NCBI GenBank assembly: GCA_017541305.1 | Contig: JAFXZJ010000025.1 | Coordinates: forward strand, 1 to 64,000 | Direction of reading: 5' to 3' | Length of the DNA: 64,000 nucleotides | Origin: Clostridia bacterium | GTDB taxonomy: Bacteria > Bacillota > Clostridia > Christensenellales > CAG-138 | Part shown: positions 47,687 to 52,375 of the stretch, one piece after another | Position numbering within the stretch: position 1 is the first letter of the stretch | Layout of the letters: each line of letters begins with the position of its first letter | The notes under the pieces: generated by a model | What the model saw: the letters and a program-made list of their open reading frames with translations, nothing else | Databases searched by the model: none | What the model was told of the DNA's origin: nothing | Position numbers and translations under genes: made by a program

Positions 47687-48004
47687 ATGAAGGTCACAAA
47701 GCTCAATGAATATGCGCCGGGATATCCCGCAAAAAAGAAGGCCGCGCTTAAAATAGGCACGATCGCCGCGGCGGCCCTGCTTGCGGCTTCCGTCTCGGCG
47801 GGCTGCACCGTGAGCGCTTCGGGATTCCTGCAGGATCCCCCCGCGATTTCGGAGGAGCCCGTTACCCCCGAGCCCACCGAGGAGCTCTGCACCCCCGGCG
47901 AACCCGCCGTGGACGAGAACGGGAATATCATACCCGATGAAACCGAAGCTCCCGTGCTGATGGGCGACGTGCAGATCGCTCCCGACGCCGGGAACGGCGG
48001 CTGA
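47687..48004 (+). CDS. Small leader-bearing peptide A, candidate radical SAM substrate
   Basis: 105 residues, SD AAAGGAGG. The N-terminus MKVTKLNEYAPGYPAK is almost identical to that of the next gene. It is followed by a hydrophobic Ala-rich segment (about 22-37) ending SVSAGC at Cys40. The remainder is Pro/Glu/Thr-rich and acidic, with one further Cys (ELCTPGE) and the segments TEAPVLMGD and DAGNGG at the end. This can be read as a peptide with a conserved leader and a variable core, or as a small lipoprotein with a weak lipobox. I do not recognise the family. Directly upstream of a second copy and a radical SAM/SPASM gene. Confidence 0.7.
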   Translation: MKVTKLNEYAPGYPAKKKAALKIGTIAAAALLAASVSAGCTVSASGFLQDPPAISEEPVTPEPTEELCTPGEPAVDENGNIIPDETEAPVLMGDVQIAPDAGNGG

Positions 48005-48020
48005 TTATTCGGAGGCATTT

Positions 48021-48335
48021 ATGAAGGTCACAAAGCTTGAGGGTTACGCACCCAAATACCCCGCAAAGGGCATAAAGCTCGGCGCGCTTGCCGCCGCTGC
48101 GGCGCTTGCCGTGGGCGCTTCGCTTGGCTGTGTGAACGCAAAGCCCGAGATAATGGGCGATTTCCCCGCGGACACCGAGCTGCCCGAGAACACGCCCGCG
48201 ATCACGCAGGCGCCCGAGACTACGGGACTGATGAATTTTGAGGAGACCCCCGAATGCACCGAGCCGCTCTCCGATGACGGCCCGATAATCGGCGGCGTTC
48301 CCGCCATCTCAGCCGAAGCCACGGAAGCTCCATAA
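48021..48335 (+). CDS. Small leader-bearing peptide B, paralogue of A
   Basis: 104 residues, SD GGAGG. MKVTKLEGYAPKYPAK matches peptide A in 14 of 16 positions. A hydrophobic Ala-rich segment follows, ending ASLGC at Cys37. The tail is acidic and Pro/Thr-rich with IMGDFPADTEL, ETPECTEPLSDD (second Cys) and a final ATEAP. Leader similarity is much higher than tail similarity, as in paired precursor peptides. The stop is seven bases before the radical SAM start, which lacks its own SD, so the enzyme is probably translated by coupling to this gene. Confidence 0.7.
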   Translation: MKVTKLEGYAPKYPAKGIKLGALAAAAALAVGASLGCVNAKPEIMGDFPADTELPENTPAITQAPETTGLMNFEETPECTEPLSDDGPIIGGVPAISAEATEAP

Positions 48336-48342
48336 AAGCACT

Positions 48343-49428
48343 ATGAATTTCACGCTTCATCTTACGGCGGACTGCAATTTTGCCTGCCGCTACTGTTACG
48401 AAACGCACAGGCCCGCCCGCATGGACGAGCGGGTGGCTTTGGCCGCCTGCGATCTTGCGTTTTCGTTCGGACATATCAAAAACGGTTTCTCGCTCTTCGG
48501 CGGGGAACCTTTATTATGCCGCGATCTGATCGAAAAGGTATTCCGCCGCTGTGCGGAGCTCAACGCGCAGCGTAAGGGCGAGCTTGCCTACAAGCTTACG
48601 ACCAACGGCTCGCTGCTCGACGAGGATTTTATAAAGCTCGCAAACGAAAACAACTGCGAGATCGCGCTTTCGCACGACGGGCTTTTGCAGGATGAGCAAA
48701 GGCTCACCCGAGGCGGCGCGGGCACGGCGGAGCTGCTTGAGCCCAAGATCGACCTTCTTTTGAAGCATCAGCCCAACGCGCTGGCCATGATGACCCTTCT
48801 GCCGCGGAACGCGGGGAAACTCTTTGATTCGGTAAAATGGCTGCACCAACGGGGCTTTGCGCGGGTGAACCTGGCCATCGACTACCGCCCGGACGCCGAG
48901 TGGGACGACGATTCCATGGCGGAGCTTGACCGGCAGTATGAGCGCATCGCCCTTTACTGCGCGGAGCATTACGACGAGATCAAGCCCCTGCGCTTCCTGA
49001 ATTTCGAATCGAAGGTTGCGGCGTACATGAACGACCGTCCCTGCATAGAGTGCCGGCTTGGGGTGAAACAGCCCTCGATCGCGCCGGACGGGACCATCTA
49101 CCCCTGCAACCAGTTCCTGAATCTGCCGGAATACGCGATGGGCAGCGTGTTCACCGGCATCGACGCCAAGGCGCAGAAGCGCATCTACCGCGCTTCGCTC
49201 GCGCCCGAAAAAAGCTGCGAGGGCTGTGCGATAGAGAAGCGCTGCCGCCATCACTGCGCCTGCCTGAATTTCAGCATGACGGGCGATATGCACACCGTGC
49301 CCGCCGTGCAGTGCGTGCACGAGCGGTCGGTAATAAAAAACGCCGATCTCATGGCGGGACTGCTGTATGAAAGGAAGAGCGAAAGGTTCATGCGGGCGTA
49401 CGGGGAAACGGCAGTGAACAGTAAATAG
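48343..49428 (+). CDS. Radical SAM/SPASM peptide-modifying enzyme (putative)
   Basis: 361 residues. The radical SAM cluster motif CNFACRYC (12-19, CxxxCxxC) follows HLTADC. SLFGGEPLL is the usual GGE SAM contact, and TTNGSLLDEDFI follows. The C-terminal third is a cysteine-rich SPASM region: CIECRLG, GTIYPCNQ, SCEGCAIEKRCRHHCACLN and AVQCVHERS. It would bind one or two auxiliary iron-sulfur clusters. This architecture is that of ribosomal-peptide maturases and anaerobic sulfatase activators. With no sulfatase here and two peptide genes directly in front, peptide modification (thioether or other crosslink) is the better guess. No clear RRE domain is visible at the N-terminus. A terminator follows. 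Confidence 0.85.
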   Translation: MNFTLHLTADCNFACRYCYETHRPARMDERVALAACDLAFSFGHIKNGFSLFGGEPLLCRDLIEKVFRRCAELNAQRKGELAYKLTTNGSLLDEDFIKLANENNCEIALSHDGLLQDEQRLTRGGAGTAELLEPKIDLLLKHQPNALAMMTLLPRNAGKLFDSVKWLHQRGFARVNLAIDYRPDAEWDDDSMAELDRQYERIALYCAEHYDEIKPLRFLNFESKVAAYMNDRPCIECRLGVKQPSIAPDGTIYPCNQFLNLPEYAMGSVFTGIDAKAQKRIYRASLAPEKSCEGCAIEKRCRHHCACLNFSMTGDMHTVPAVQCVHERSVIKNADLMAGLLYERKSERFMRAYGETAVNSK

Positions 49429-49552: not shown

Positions 49553-49897
49553 ATGCAGATATCGCCTGATGTGATCCGCGGACATACGGATTCGATCATA
49601 TTATCCCGCCTTATTACAGGCGACAGCTACGGTTATGATATTGGTAAATCCATTCGCAGGCTGTCCGATGGTTATATAGACCTCAAGGAGGCGACTCTCT
49701 ATACAGCGTTCAGACGCATGGAGGCAGACGGGCTCATAATATCATATTGGGGTGAGCAGGAAGGCGGCGCGCGCCGAAGGTACTACCGTATTACGGAAAA
49801 AGGCCGCAAGGCATATTGTGCCTACATCGAAGAATGGAAATCGACAAAAACGATACTCGATAGGATCTTTATGATCGGAGGTGATCAAAATGCGTGA
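49553..49897 (+). CDS. PadR-family transcriptional regulator
   Basis: 114 residues, typical for the short PadR group. The winged helix includes SRLITGDSYGYDIGKSIRRL, KEATLYTAFRRMEADGLI and EGGARRRYYRITEKG. PadR proteins of this type usually repress their own operon, with a membrane protein as partner. The next gene starts eight bases before its stop. Confidence 0.93.
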   Translation: MQISPDVIRGHTDSIILSRLITGDSYGYDIGKSIRRLSDGYIDLKEATLYTAFRRMEADGLIISYWGEQEGGARRRYYRITEKGRKAYCAYIEEWKSTKTILDRIFMIGGDQNA

Positions 49898-50783
49898 AGC
49901 GCTTGAAAAAGAGATTAACCGAAAGGTCGGCAGAACATATGGATCCGCTGAGATAAAACAGCTAAGAAATGAGCTTGTTTCCGGAGCACTTGAGCGGTAT
50001 GACGATGAGCTTGCTTCGGGAGCTTTACCCGAAGCGGCTTACAGCACCGCTCTCGATTCGTTGGGCGACATAAGCGAGTTGCTCAAGTCCTGCGGCGTGG
50101 ATGAAAAGCGGAAGCGCCGCCGCCTTGCCTTGGCCATACCCCTGCTTCTGCTTTTGCTTGTGCCCGTGATCGCATGCGCGGCGCTTATCGAAAACAGCAC
50201 AGCCATGATCTTTTTTCTGATCATCGGACTGATAGCCGTCGGACTGACAGCATACGGAGTATTATCCCTCATCACCCGCTCCGGGAAAAAACCTTTAAGC
50301 ATAGTGAGCATCGCGATAGGCAGCACTATCTGTTCAACGCTTGCATACTTTGCGCTTATGATCATCTTCGGCACGATCGTCGAACAGGACGACAAGCGTT
50401 TTGACTACACCGGAGATATCGACACGATCAGCTCTATCTCGATAATACGGGTTTCTGGCGATTACTATTCAAGCACGATGGAGGACGATTTCAAATACAC
50501 CGTAGTAAAGGATATCGATCGCGAGGAATGGGCCAAACTGCTTTCAGAGATCGCAGAACTCAAATTCTATCTTCCTTTCGGCGATCCGCCATCTGTCAAT
50601 GCTGACGAACTGATGGTTATGATACGCTTCTCTCCATCAAAGGACGGCATGACCTGTGCACTGATCGGACAGAAATGTCCCGGATATGGTGAAAGGGTGG
50701 ATTCGAGGGTCCGGCTATATTTCCATTCCTATTTGTGTAAAGCAACCGATTGGGATTCCGTGATAAAAAAGTATTTGGATTGA
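49890..50783 (+). CDS. PadR-associated membrane protein
   Basis: 297 residues from ATG 49890, whose SD (GGAGGTG) lies inside padR. An N-terminal helical domain of about 75 residues (EINRKVGRTYGSAEIKQLRN, DELASGALPEAAYSTALDSL) resembles the permease-prefix/DUF1700-like domains common behind PadR. Three transmembrane helices follow (about 82-102, 105-125, 135-160), then an outer beta domain of about 130 residues. Such proteins may sense envelope state and titrate or signal to PadR, which is inferred. Confidence 0.75.
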   Translation: MREALEKEINRKVGRTYGSAEIKQLRNELVSGALERYDDELASGALPEAAYSTALDSLGDISELLKSCGVDEKRKRRRLALAIPLLLLLLVPVIACAALIENSTAMIFFLIIGLIAVGLTAYGVLSLITRSGKKPLSIVSIAIGSTICSTLAYFALMIIFGTIVEQDDKRFDYTGDIDTISSISIIRVSGDYYSSTMEDDFKYTVVKDIDREEWAKLLSEIAELKFYLPFGDPPSVNADELMVMIRFSPSKDGMTCALIGQKCPGYGERVDSRVRLYFHSYLCKATDWDSVIKKYLD

Positions 50784-50850: not shown

Positions 50851-51543
50851 TTACAGTTCGGGCTTGGAGGTGTCGACCTTGCCGCAGACGATCTCGAGAT
50901 TGCCGTTGCGGACGCGGATCTTGTCGATCATTTCCTTTTCGCGCTTGGTGCTGCGCAGGTTTATCCTGTAATAGAGCTTGTAAAGGCTGCCCATATTGGT
51001 GGTCTTGACCTTTTCGAGCTCCCAGGAGGTGGTGTATTTCTTGAAGATATCGTCGAATTCGCCGGAATAATCGAGGCTTTCGGGCACGGTTATGCGCAGC
51101 TCGCGGTATTTGGCGGGCTTTTCGCCGAAGCCGAGCATGAGCAGCACGAAGCCTATCGCGCAGATCACGATTATCACCGCGGCGGCAAGCAGCACGTAGC
51201 CGGAGCCGCATATGACGCCCGCGGCCATTGAAAGGAATATTACCAGAATATCGCGCGCGGTGCCGGGAGCGGAACGGAAGCGGACGAGGCCGAATGCGCC
51301 GCCCATCACTATGCCCATGCCGAGATTGCCGTTGACGACGGCGACGACCGCCGCCACCGCCACGGGCAGGAGCACCAGAGTCATTGCCATGCCCCTGTTA
51401 AAGCTGTTGCGGTACATATAAAGGAACGCCACGAGCAGGCCAAGCAAGAGCGCTGCGCCGCAGCAGACGAGTATCATTGCGACGTCGGGAACGATGGTGC
51501 CGTTCTTGAGAAGCAGACTGGTGAAAATGCCGTCCGAGATCAT
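50851..51543 (-). CDS. DUF4956 membrane protein
   Basis: 230 residues. About four transmembrane helices (20-42, 52-72, 75-95, 110-140) precede a cytoplasmic domain. GIVMGGAFGLVRFRSAPGTARDILVIF is the signature of DUF4956. The gene overlaps the end of the VTC-domain gene by four bases (ATGA), a pairing seen widely in Firmicutes, so the two probably form a membrane complex. Function unknown. Confidence 0.88.
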   Translation of the reverse strand: MISDGIFTSLLLKNGTIVPDVAMILVCCGAALLLGLLVAFLYMYRNSFNRGMAMTLVLLPVAVAAVVAVVNGNLGMGIVMGGAFGLVRFRSAPGTARDILVIFLSMAAGVICGSGYVLLAAAVIIVICAIGFVLLMLGFGEKPAKYRELRITVPESLDYSGEFDDIFKKYTTSWELEKVKTTNMGSLYKLYYRINLRSTKREKEMIDKIRVRNGNLEIVCGKVDTSKPEL

Positions 51544-52268
51544 AAATTGTCCCCCTGGTTTGTTGTTGTTTTTTGTGCTAAGAGCATTTTGTATGCGTTG
51601 CCGTACTTGGTGTAGGAGCCCGGGTAGATCCTGAGCTCGTCAAGCATGCCGGAGAGCCAAAGCGGCATCGCGTTGTTGATCTTTATCTCCAATATGTAGG
51701 AGCCCTGATCCATGAGCGTTTGCCCGTGCGGGCCGTGACGCAGATCGAGATCGTCCGTGCGGAAGGTGATGTTGGTATCGAACGTCATGCGCAGCTCGGG
51801 ATCCTCGCACCCGAAGAACGCCTGACGGTCATAGAACAGCGCCATGGCGGGCGCAAGCCCCTCGTAAAAATCGAGCACCCAATCGATCTCGGCCATTATC
51901 TGCGTGTAAGGTTCGGGAGCTTCGCGGCCGACAAGGAAGCGTATCGCTTCATCATAGGGCATTATCTCGCGCCTTTTATACACGATGCCCATGAGCTTTT
52001 TCTTGAGCTCGACAAAGGCGGGGCTGTCGCCGACCGGCACTCCGTAGGTGCGCAGACGAAGCTTTTCCTTATAGCGGGGCTTTTCGATGGATTCGCGGAT
52101 GAGGCGCGAATTCGGCGTATCGAAATAGATATTGCAGATCTTCGTCACGCCGTATTCATCGGCCTGCATGAAGCCGCGTATCCTTTCTCTCAGCGCCTCG
52201 TATTGCTCTTTTGTGATGATGTATTTGATCTCTTTGCGCTCAAATACAGCCTGGTTCCTGTTGATCAT
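51540..52268 (-). CDS. VTC-domain protein (polyphosphate polymerase-like)
   Basis: 242 residues from ATG 52268 (or 52265). The tunnel-shaped VTC fold pattern is seen. There is FERKEIKYIITKEQYEAL at the start, then ICNIYFDTPNSRLIRES, KEKLRLRTYG, FVELKKKLMGIVYKRRE and a late ILEIKINNAMPLWL. The Lys/Arg and Glu residues in these strands bind nucleotide, phosphate and metal in yeast Vtc4. With DUF4956 as partner it may make or export polyphosphate or another polymer, but bacterial members are little studied. Confidence 0.88.
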   Translation of the reverse strand: MINRNQAVFERKEIKYIITKEQYEALRERIRGFMQADEYGVTKICNIYFDTPNSRLIRESIEKPRYKEKLRLRTYGVPVGDSPAFVELKKKLMGIVYKRREIMPYDEAIRFLVGREAPEPYTQIMAEIDWVLDFYEGLAPAMALFYDRQAFFGCEDPELRMTFDTNITFRTDDLDLRHGPHGQTLMDQGSYILEIKINNAMPLWLSGMLDELRIYPGSYTKYGNAYKMLLAQKTTTNQGDNL

Positions 52269-52375
52269 CATCCACCGACCGCACGGGGACAAGCTTCCCC
52301 TTTTTTCGACATGTATTATAACACTTTTACGCCAAAAACGCTACATATATATTGCGGCAAACCGCAGACAGATTT

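Follow-up and report, generated by a model that had tools for sequence, protein, structure and literature searches.

A putative radical SAM system pairing a SPASM enzyme with leader-bearing, lipoprotein-like proteins in Clostridia and their relatives

Among described systems, the freyrasin-type ranthipeptides (PapA/PapB) combine a SPASM radical SAM maturase with a small precursor composed of a leader and a repeated core, and the SCIFF/ScfB-type systems employ related SPASM enzymes. Radical SAM maturases have been studied mostly on peptides that use dedicated exporters; the anaerobic sulfatase-maturating enzyme, also a SPASM protein, modifies secreted sulfatases prior to export. According to the available part of PMC9062424, TvgB is a radical SAM enzyme that acts on a Cys-free repeated TVGG motif, forming cyclopropylglycine from Val. 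Bufferins, as described in the accessible part of PMC12452194, are RiPP precursors with Sec signal peptides that are modified before export; approximately 16% of Buf2 carry lipoprotein signals, and some MNIO precursors are very long.

The locus compared with these systems here lies in a window of 64,000 nucleotides (the whole stretch of DNA analysed) from a Clostridia bacterium. The original prediction described two tandem small genes followed by a SPASM radical SAM enzyme, and its coordinates, the shared 16-residue start and the hydrophobic segment ending in Cys were all confirmed. The features are as follows:

47687..48004, + strand: putative substrate 1, 105 aa, with leader, hydrophobic segment, Cys40 and acidic tail (leader profile E 2.0e-14)
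47687..47734, + strand: leader of substrate 1, MKVTKLNEYAPGYPAK; Y9, Y13 and P14 invariant and P11 at least 90% conserved in 45 aligned substrates
47750..47806, + strand: hydrophobic segment of substrate 1 up to lipobox-like Cys40 (hydropathy; invariant Cys; G or A at -1 in 53 of 53 peptides)
47957..47983, + strand: tail motif LMGDVQIAP of substrate 1, candidate modification site (motif counts)
48021..48335, + strand: putative substrate 2, paralogue of substrate 1, 104 aa (leader profile E 2.3e-16)
48021..48068, + strand: leader of substrate 2, MKVTKLEGYAPKYPAK (alignment and leader profile)
48084..48131, + strand: hydrophobic segment of substrate 2 up to lipobox-like Cys37 (hydropathy, Cys context)
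48150..48170, + strand: tail motif IMGDFPA of substrate 2, candidate site (motif counts)
48285..48308, + strand: tail motif IIGGVPAI of substrate 2, candidate site (motif counts)
48343..49428, + strand: SPASM radical SAM enzyme, 361 aa, without an N-terminal RRE-type domain
48373..48396, + strand: CX3CX2C radical SAM cluster motif, enzyme residues 11-18 (sequence pattern)
49051..49314, + strand: SPASM region, C237 to C324, with two auxiliary clusters expected (TIGR04085, Cys pattern)

The two leaders are identical at 13 of 16 residues, and in both peptides an Ala-rich hydrophobic segment closing in Cys (C40 and C37) precedes an acidic, Pro/Thr-rich tail with one additional Cys, itself followed by acidic residues. 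Shine-Dalgarno-like sequences lie upstream of both small genes (AAAGGAGG and CGGAGG). The enzyme gene begins after a gap of seven bases, and on reading the sequence no Shine-Dalgarno sequence was seen near it, just as had been noted before. Further downstream, window positions 49553-50783 encode a PadR-type regulator (PF03551, 74 bits) and then a membrane protein that weakly matches a permease prefix, and positions 50851-52292 on the minus strand encode a DUF4956 membrane protein adjoining a VTC-domain protein, a pair that we take to suggest polyphosphate synthesis.

The pairing was followed through 103 genomes of the family, using an enzyme threshold of E<=1e-60 and a leader profile built from 27 leaders. 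The enzyme was detected in 43 genomes at 45 places, including 12 of the 13 genomes of the window's genus, and the leader profile yielded 59 matches at E<=8.6e-13 in 41 genomes, with the next best match at 4.9e-4; chance open reading frames were ruled out by this gap. In 56 of these 59 strong matches the leader begins no more than 1.5 kb ahead of an enzyme encoded on the same strand; the remaining three are at contig ends, one (G076) 131 bases before the end of its contig and two (G043, G049), both on the minus strand, at a distance of 90-95 bases from where a contig begins. Homologues of the peptide are thus not mostly enzyme-free. Conversely, 40 of the 45 enzymes have a detected leader. The other five comprise G059, where the locus is cut by a contig end and the remainder of the substrate is still readable upstream, the cut enzyme locus of G049, and G015 and both G101 loci, which have substrate-like proteins of ~300 aa, one G101 copy lying downstream with one gene intervening. 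Counted per genome, 40 carry both enzyme and leader, three the enzyme only, one the leader only and 59 neither (Fisher p 7.9e-24), a value that overstates independence because the genomes are related, and that uses a profile derived from enzyme neighbourhoods, though the search was genome-wide.

Enzyme and leader are also absent together. In L003 the gene order is recA, substrate, enzyme, DUF4956 (the recA and DUF4956 assignments being partly our own reading); in G083, a genome of the same genus that is 90% complete, the DUF4956 match follows the recA match by 67 bases, and profile searches found neither enzyme nor leader anywhere in the genome. The PadR regulator and membrane protein separate the enzyme from DUF4956 in the window, an arrangement seen in neither L003 nor G083. 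Both components are likewise missing from G012 (genus g10, 94% complete), two relatives of which carry both.

Beyond the family, all enzyme matches at E<=1e-70 in an order-level sample of 396 genomes fell inside the family (10 genomes). A class-level sample of 391 genomes had the enzyme at E<=1e-60 in 21, the window's own included, and the loci of the 15 strongest matches outside the family were compared. A leader-bearing substrate or fragment is present at 14 of these 15 loci; in L099, where the contig begins, only the C-terminal part of the substrate is found, and in L095 the substrate lies downstream past one gene. A stop occurs inside the enzyme frame of L102 (G692). L109:4852-6460 is degenerate, with a broken enzyme frame and leader-like and motif-like stretches downstream in differing frames. 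Four of the five class matches at 2e-63 to 4e-61 were inspected: three have a SCIFF-like peptide upstream, and L092 shows no small peptide; the fifth, G650 (4.1e-61), was left out of the locus comparison. In a phylum-level sample of 398 genomes, matches at E<=1e-70 came from four genomes, of which two were new and did not belong to the class; at both new loci (2/2) a leader-bearing protein of 266-267 aa lies directly upstream of the enzyme, so the pairing held out of sample. Nine of the 391 class genomes were matched at E<=1e-5 by a profile of the large substrates, and all nine also carry the enzyme; since seven of the nine supplied rows of the profile, the informative part is the absence of matches in the other 382 genomes. 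Two large-substrate matches are not beside an enzyme: G559:C5 stands where a contig begins, and for G633:C8 the 6 kb read contains no enzyme.

From this linkage, spread beyond the family and joint absence, it is very likely that the small proteins are substrates of the adjoining enzyme, as the original prediction proposed, and on genomic grounds we regard the pairing as real and conserved in Clostridia and relatives and not as a product of chance. The enzyme is not mostly found beside sulfatases or other substrates, and no sulfatase was seen among the neighbours read. The view that no protease or exporter accompanies the pair was also borne out. ORFs of at least 90 aa were clustered across 22 loci, an approach that misses genes that are shorter or too diverged, and families common to at least three loci were the enzyme (18, displaced by longer overlapping ORFs at the other four), large substrates (7), small f74 substrates (3), a group of ORFs at four loci that we take for antisense ORFs, and pgsA, recA and a 156 aa gene (3 each; the names pgsA, recA and, for the 156 aa gene, CarD-like are our own reading). 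No exporter, protease or immunity gene was conserved in this clustering, which ruled out a linked one among ORFs of that size.

The enzyme carries the CX3CX2C motif together with a seven-Cys SPASM pattern (C237-X12-G-X4-C255; C292-X2-C295-X5-C301-X3-C305; C324), both invariant among 10 compared enzymes, as is characteristic of a SPASM radical SAM maturase. TIGR04085 matches it with 43.2 bits, above the cut-off of 27, and the Pfam SPASM model with 17.1 bits, under the cut-off of 21.5. Its top NCBIfam match is PapB (NF047865) at 175 bits, not reaching the cut-off of 340 (enzymes of four relatives score 167-223 bits), followed by the SCIFF maturase model TIGR03974 at 122 bits, not reaching 425. 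The nearest solved structure in a comparison of the enzyme profile with the PDB is the SCIFF/ScfB-type 5wgg/5why (E 1.4e-56), with 4k36-4k39, structures of the anaerobic sulfatase-maturating enzyme, listed next. Enzymes from 32 paired loci form one clade (support 99/99) apart from an outgroup of 10 further radical SAM proteins, of which position or peptide identifies four as SCIFF-type, in a tree in which some outgroup branches are long and their placement unsure. The CX3CX2C motif begins at residue 11 in 28 of the 32 clade enzymes, the remaining four having longer called starts, and at residues 86-117 in four SCIFF-type maturases. Judged by this position, no RRE-type N-terminal extension is present, in agreement with the earlier remark that no RRE was visible. 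The window genome has two PqqD-like matches, both on other contigs, so that the leader would be read by the enzyme directly or through a distant partner. At E<=0.001 this genome contains one further match to the enzyme (1.1e-31), a genuine SCIFF maturase that scores 602 bits against a cut-off of 425 and is situated behind its own Cys-rich peptide (L002:1094-2586); two SPASM peptide systems therefore coexist. A SCIFF identity for the window system was ruled out by this separate locus, by the score of 122 bits against 425 and by the lack of a Cys-rich peptide.

Three kinds of substrate were distinguished: (i) the window type, of 76-150 aa as trimmed, with an acidic repeat tail, (ii) a small f74-family type of 66-117 aa, whose leader contains YKKPLYA, and (iii) a large type of ~190-320 aa, most members of which have P-x-RW ahead of the hydrophobic segment. 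Seven of 15 aligned large substrates contain H-G-x-G-R-x-x-[F/Y]-G-C followed by a [F/Y]-L-S-E-E stretch. Profile comparison gave 97.2% for window against large leaders and 95.2% for window against full-length f74 substrates; f74 against the window leader alone aligned only 10 columns (81%). M1 and C40 join the leader residues listed above as invariant in the 45 aligned window-type substrates. L112:2573-3262 encodes a substrate of the large type and lacks an enzyme in the 6 kb read; the enzyme is present elsewhere in its genome, and the substrate may act in trans. L057:4475-4690 encodes a 71 aa peptide, placed ahead of the usual substrate, that begins like a leader and contains an MGSIMIPE stretch; reading of the sequence revealed no hydrophobic segment in it. 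L060:4115-4906, between the enzyme and a substrate-like neighbour, is a lipoprotein-like protein of 263 aa with a PVIYLYPEKP stretch for which no family was found. In L100:1920-3689, a substrate-type N-terminus and domain are fused to a copper amine oxidase N-terminal domain (E 1.4e-37), with a weak PqqD-like match near the C-terminus (E 0.012, below cut-off). Apart from one domain of L100, no substrate gave a match above cut-off in Pfam, NCBIfam, PHROGs or PDB sequences; the two window peptides had none above the NCBIfam/Pfam cut-offs and none in PHROGs at E<=0.1. The suggestion of an undescribed peptide family held up in that none of these libraries has a substrate family, and no recognised description of the peptide-enzyme pair was found in open-licence PMC papers.

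The tails were compared in 53 distinct peptides gathered by the text pattern Y-x-[P/V]-x-Y-P, identical ones being counted once; a G080 peptide found by profile is not among the 53, and a more strictly selected set of 50 agrees with the results below. Forty of the 53 tails contain no Cys, and eight of the 13 that do belong to the window's genus. The pattern Cys-X3-Asp/Glu, of PapB type, occurs in three of the 53. Thirteen tails are without Cys and without Trp, Tyr, Phe or His, so that neither thioethers nor aromatic crosslinks can form within them. The relaxed motif G-x-[aliphatic/P/F]-x-[aliphatic/P/F] was counted 180 times in the tails (53/53) against 48.7 +/- 6.4 in shuffles, and the strict motif [LIVM]-x-G-[DEG]-x-x-[VIL] 71 times (49/53 tails) against 6.1 +/- 2.6; in f74 tails the strict motif was counted 18 times (7/10 tails) against 0.8 +/- 0.9. 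It is important to note that these counts run over related peptides and hence are not independent. In large substrates the Asp or Glu that follows Gly in small ones is often replaced by Cys, which would allow a PapB-like reaction in part of the clade. No TVGG repeats are present in the window tails. In ten close relatives the strings ELVLDGE and PALxGK are constant (absent in one short member), with I, V or Y at +4, and given this constancy and the varying +4 position the L-x-G motif may be structural rather than a reaction site.

On balance we lean towards a compact system in which a leader-reading radical SAM enzyme alters the tails of lipoprotein-like substrates before export. The conservation pattern suggests that the SPASM enzyme would recognise an N-terminal leader of approximately Y-x(1,2)-P-x-[Y/I]-P ahead of a lipoprotein-type signal peptide. 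The tail would then be modified in the cytosol, prior to export, at the repeats of L-x-G-[D/E]-x-x-[V/I], or, in large substrates, possibly at the corresponding stretch with which the globular domain opens (G-C-x-S-V, G-D-x-Y-V and similar). The substrate would subsequently pass through general Sec, Lgt and LspA and be anchored by its lipobox Cys, a route that calls for neither a dedicated protease nor a dedicated exporter. By analogy, the Cys-free tails would be better explained by a motif change that does not depend on Cys, either a C-C bond or a single-residue change like that of TvgB on Val. More tentatively, and short of an even chance, the locus could represent a class of surface lipoproteins, as yet without a name, that radical SAM enzymes modify in Clostridia and relatives, with the leader placed before a lipoprotein signal, one enzyme clade, and a Cys- and aromatic-independent change at L-x-G-[D/E]-x-x-[V/I], ranging from repeat peptides of ~70 aa to globular proteins of ~300 aa.

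The features of the invariant Cys agree in part with this route. By its sequence context it looks like a lipobox in that the G or A at -1 is general and a PROSITE-like lipoprotein pattern matches 50 of the 53 peptides, but the A, T or S found at -3 in 37 of 53 peptides is atypical, whereas several large substrates have L, I or V there. The window genome encodes the lipoprotein signal peptidase LspA (PF01252, E 1.0e-31). The copper amine oxidase-fused L100 protein keeps the hydrophobic segment with no Cys following it, which argues for an export role of the segment and against the Cys as a general reaction site. A small gene with a conserved leader is genetically tied to a modifying enzyme, as in RiPPs, and both readings, as lipoprotein and as RiPP, probably hold. 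As radical SAM enzymes operate in the reducing cytosol, modification should precede export, and it is probable from the sequences that the enzyme alters surface proteins before they leave the cell.

An unlikely alternative, and the one that survives best, is ranthipeptide-like chemistry, in which a Cys of the tail or of the FGC motif is joined to a nearby Asp/Glu side chain as by PapB, Cys-free substrates being modified otherwise or not at all. The two best NCBIfam matches, PapB and the SCIFF maturase, both form thioethers, both window tails have a Cys followed by acidic residues, seven of ten f74 tails contain Cys, some large substrates carry the FGC motif, and PapB accepts Cys-Xn-Asp with n of 0-6 in vitro (available part of PMC9413430). 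However, 175 bits is far under the PapB cut-off, Cys-free tails predominate with Cys-X3-Asp/Glu in so few, and the sole invariant Cys stands in a lipobox-like context and is missing from one L100 paralogue. Cys-based tail crosslinks, which had been expected from the window pair, are therefore not supported as a general rule and that prediction is weakened; since tail Cys is unconserved, Cys thioethers probably do not account for the product in general, and a Cys-dependent product is possible for the Cys-bearing members (the window pair, seven of ten small f74 and the large FGC substrates).

It is less likely still that the enzyme targets the leader or the invariant Cys, leaving the tail repeats as an unmodified cell-surface spacer. 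The leader Tyr/Pro residues and the Cys are the most constant positions and the tails are acidic, Pro-rich and linker-like, but the tail motif is far commoner than in shuffled sequences and is found again in the f74 type, the first leader Tyr is replaced in L059, L060, L101 and L108, the second is Ile in L100, and the invariant Cys is missing in one L100 paralogue. The rival noted from the outset, that these are ordinary small lipoproteins next to a functionally unrelated enzyme, is half borne out, in that the proteins look like lipoproteins (lipobox-like Cys, signal-like segment), but is very improbable in its second part, given that the enzyme is linked to the peptides across families and at differing sites and that the two are jointly absent in G083.

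The preferred reading, tail modification by a leader-reading enzyme before export, describes a pair found in none of the libraries or open-licence PMC literature searched, a variation on the secreted peptides and proteins that radical SAM enzymes modify. A single enzyme clade seems to act on short repeat peptides as well as on full-size secreted domains with a lipoprotein-type signal, which, if true, joins peptide natural-product chemistry to ordinary cell-surface proteins. Surveys may miss the system, as TIGR03973 is the ranthipeptide rule in the available part of the Hungate1000 rumen study (PMC13289728) and the NCBIfam release has no model for the tested substrates; with only two genes and Cys-free substrates, the chemistry is directly testable. 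Compared with PapA/PapB, the window system scores 175 against 340, has Cys-X3-Asp/Glu in 3 of 53 tails, bears a lipoprotein-type signal and has no RRE-type extension. The SCIFF enzymes form a separate clade, and their peptides are Cys-rich whereas those of the window type are not. The anaerobic sulfatase-maturating model scores only 66 bits on the window enzyme against a cut-off of 349. TvgA/TvgB, as far as the available part of PMC9062424 describes it, shares a Cys-free repeated Gly-containing motif but differs in the motif itself and in its five-gene cluster. Bufferin precursors, in the accessible part of PMC12452194, are likewise signal-bearing and modified before export, but by an MNIO enzyme with Cys chemistry and a partner protein, whereas here the enzyme is a radical SAM protein, the leader precedes the signal and most window-type tails are Cys-free.
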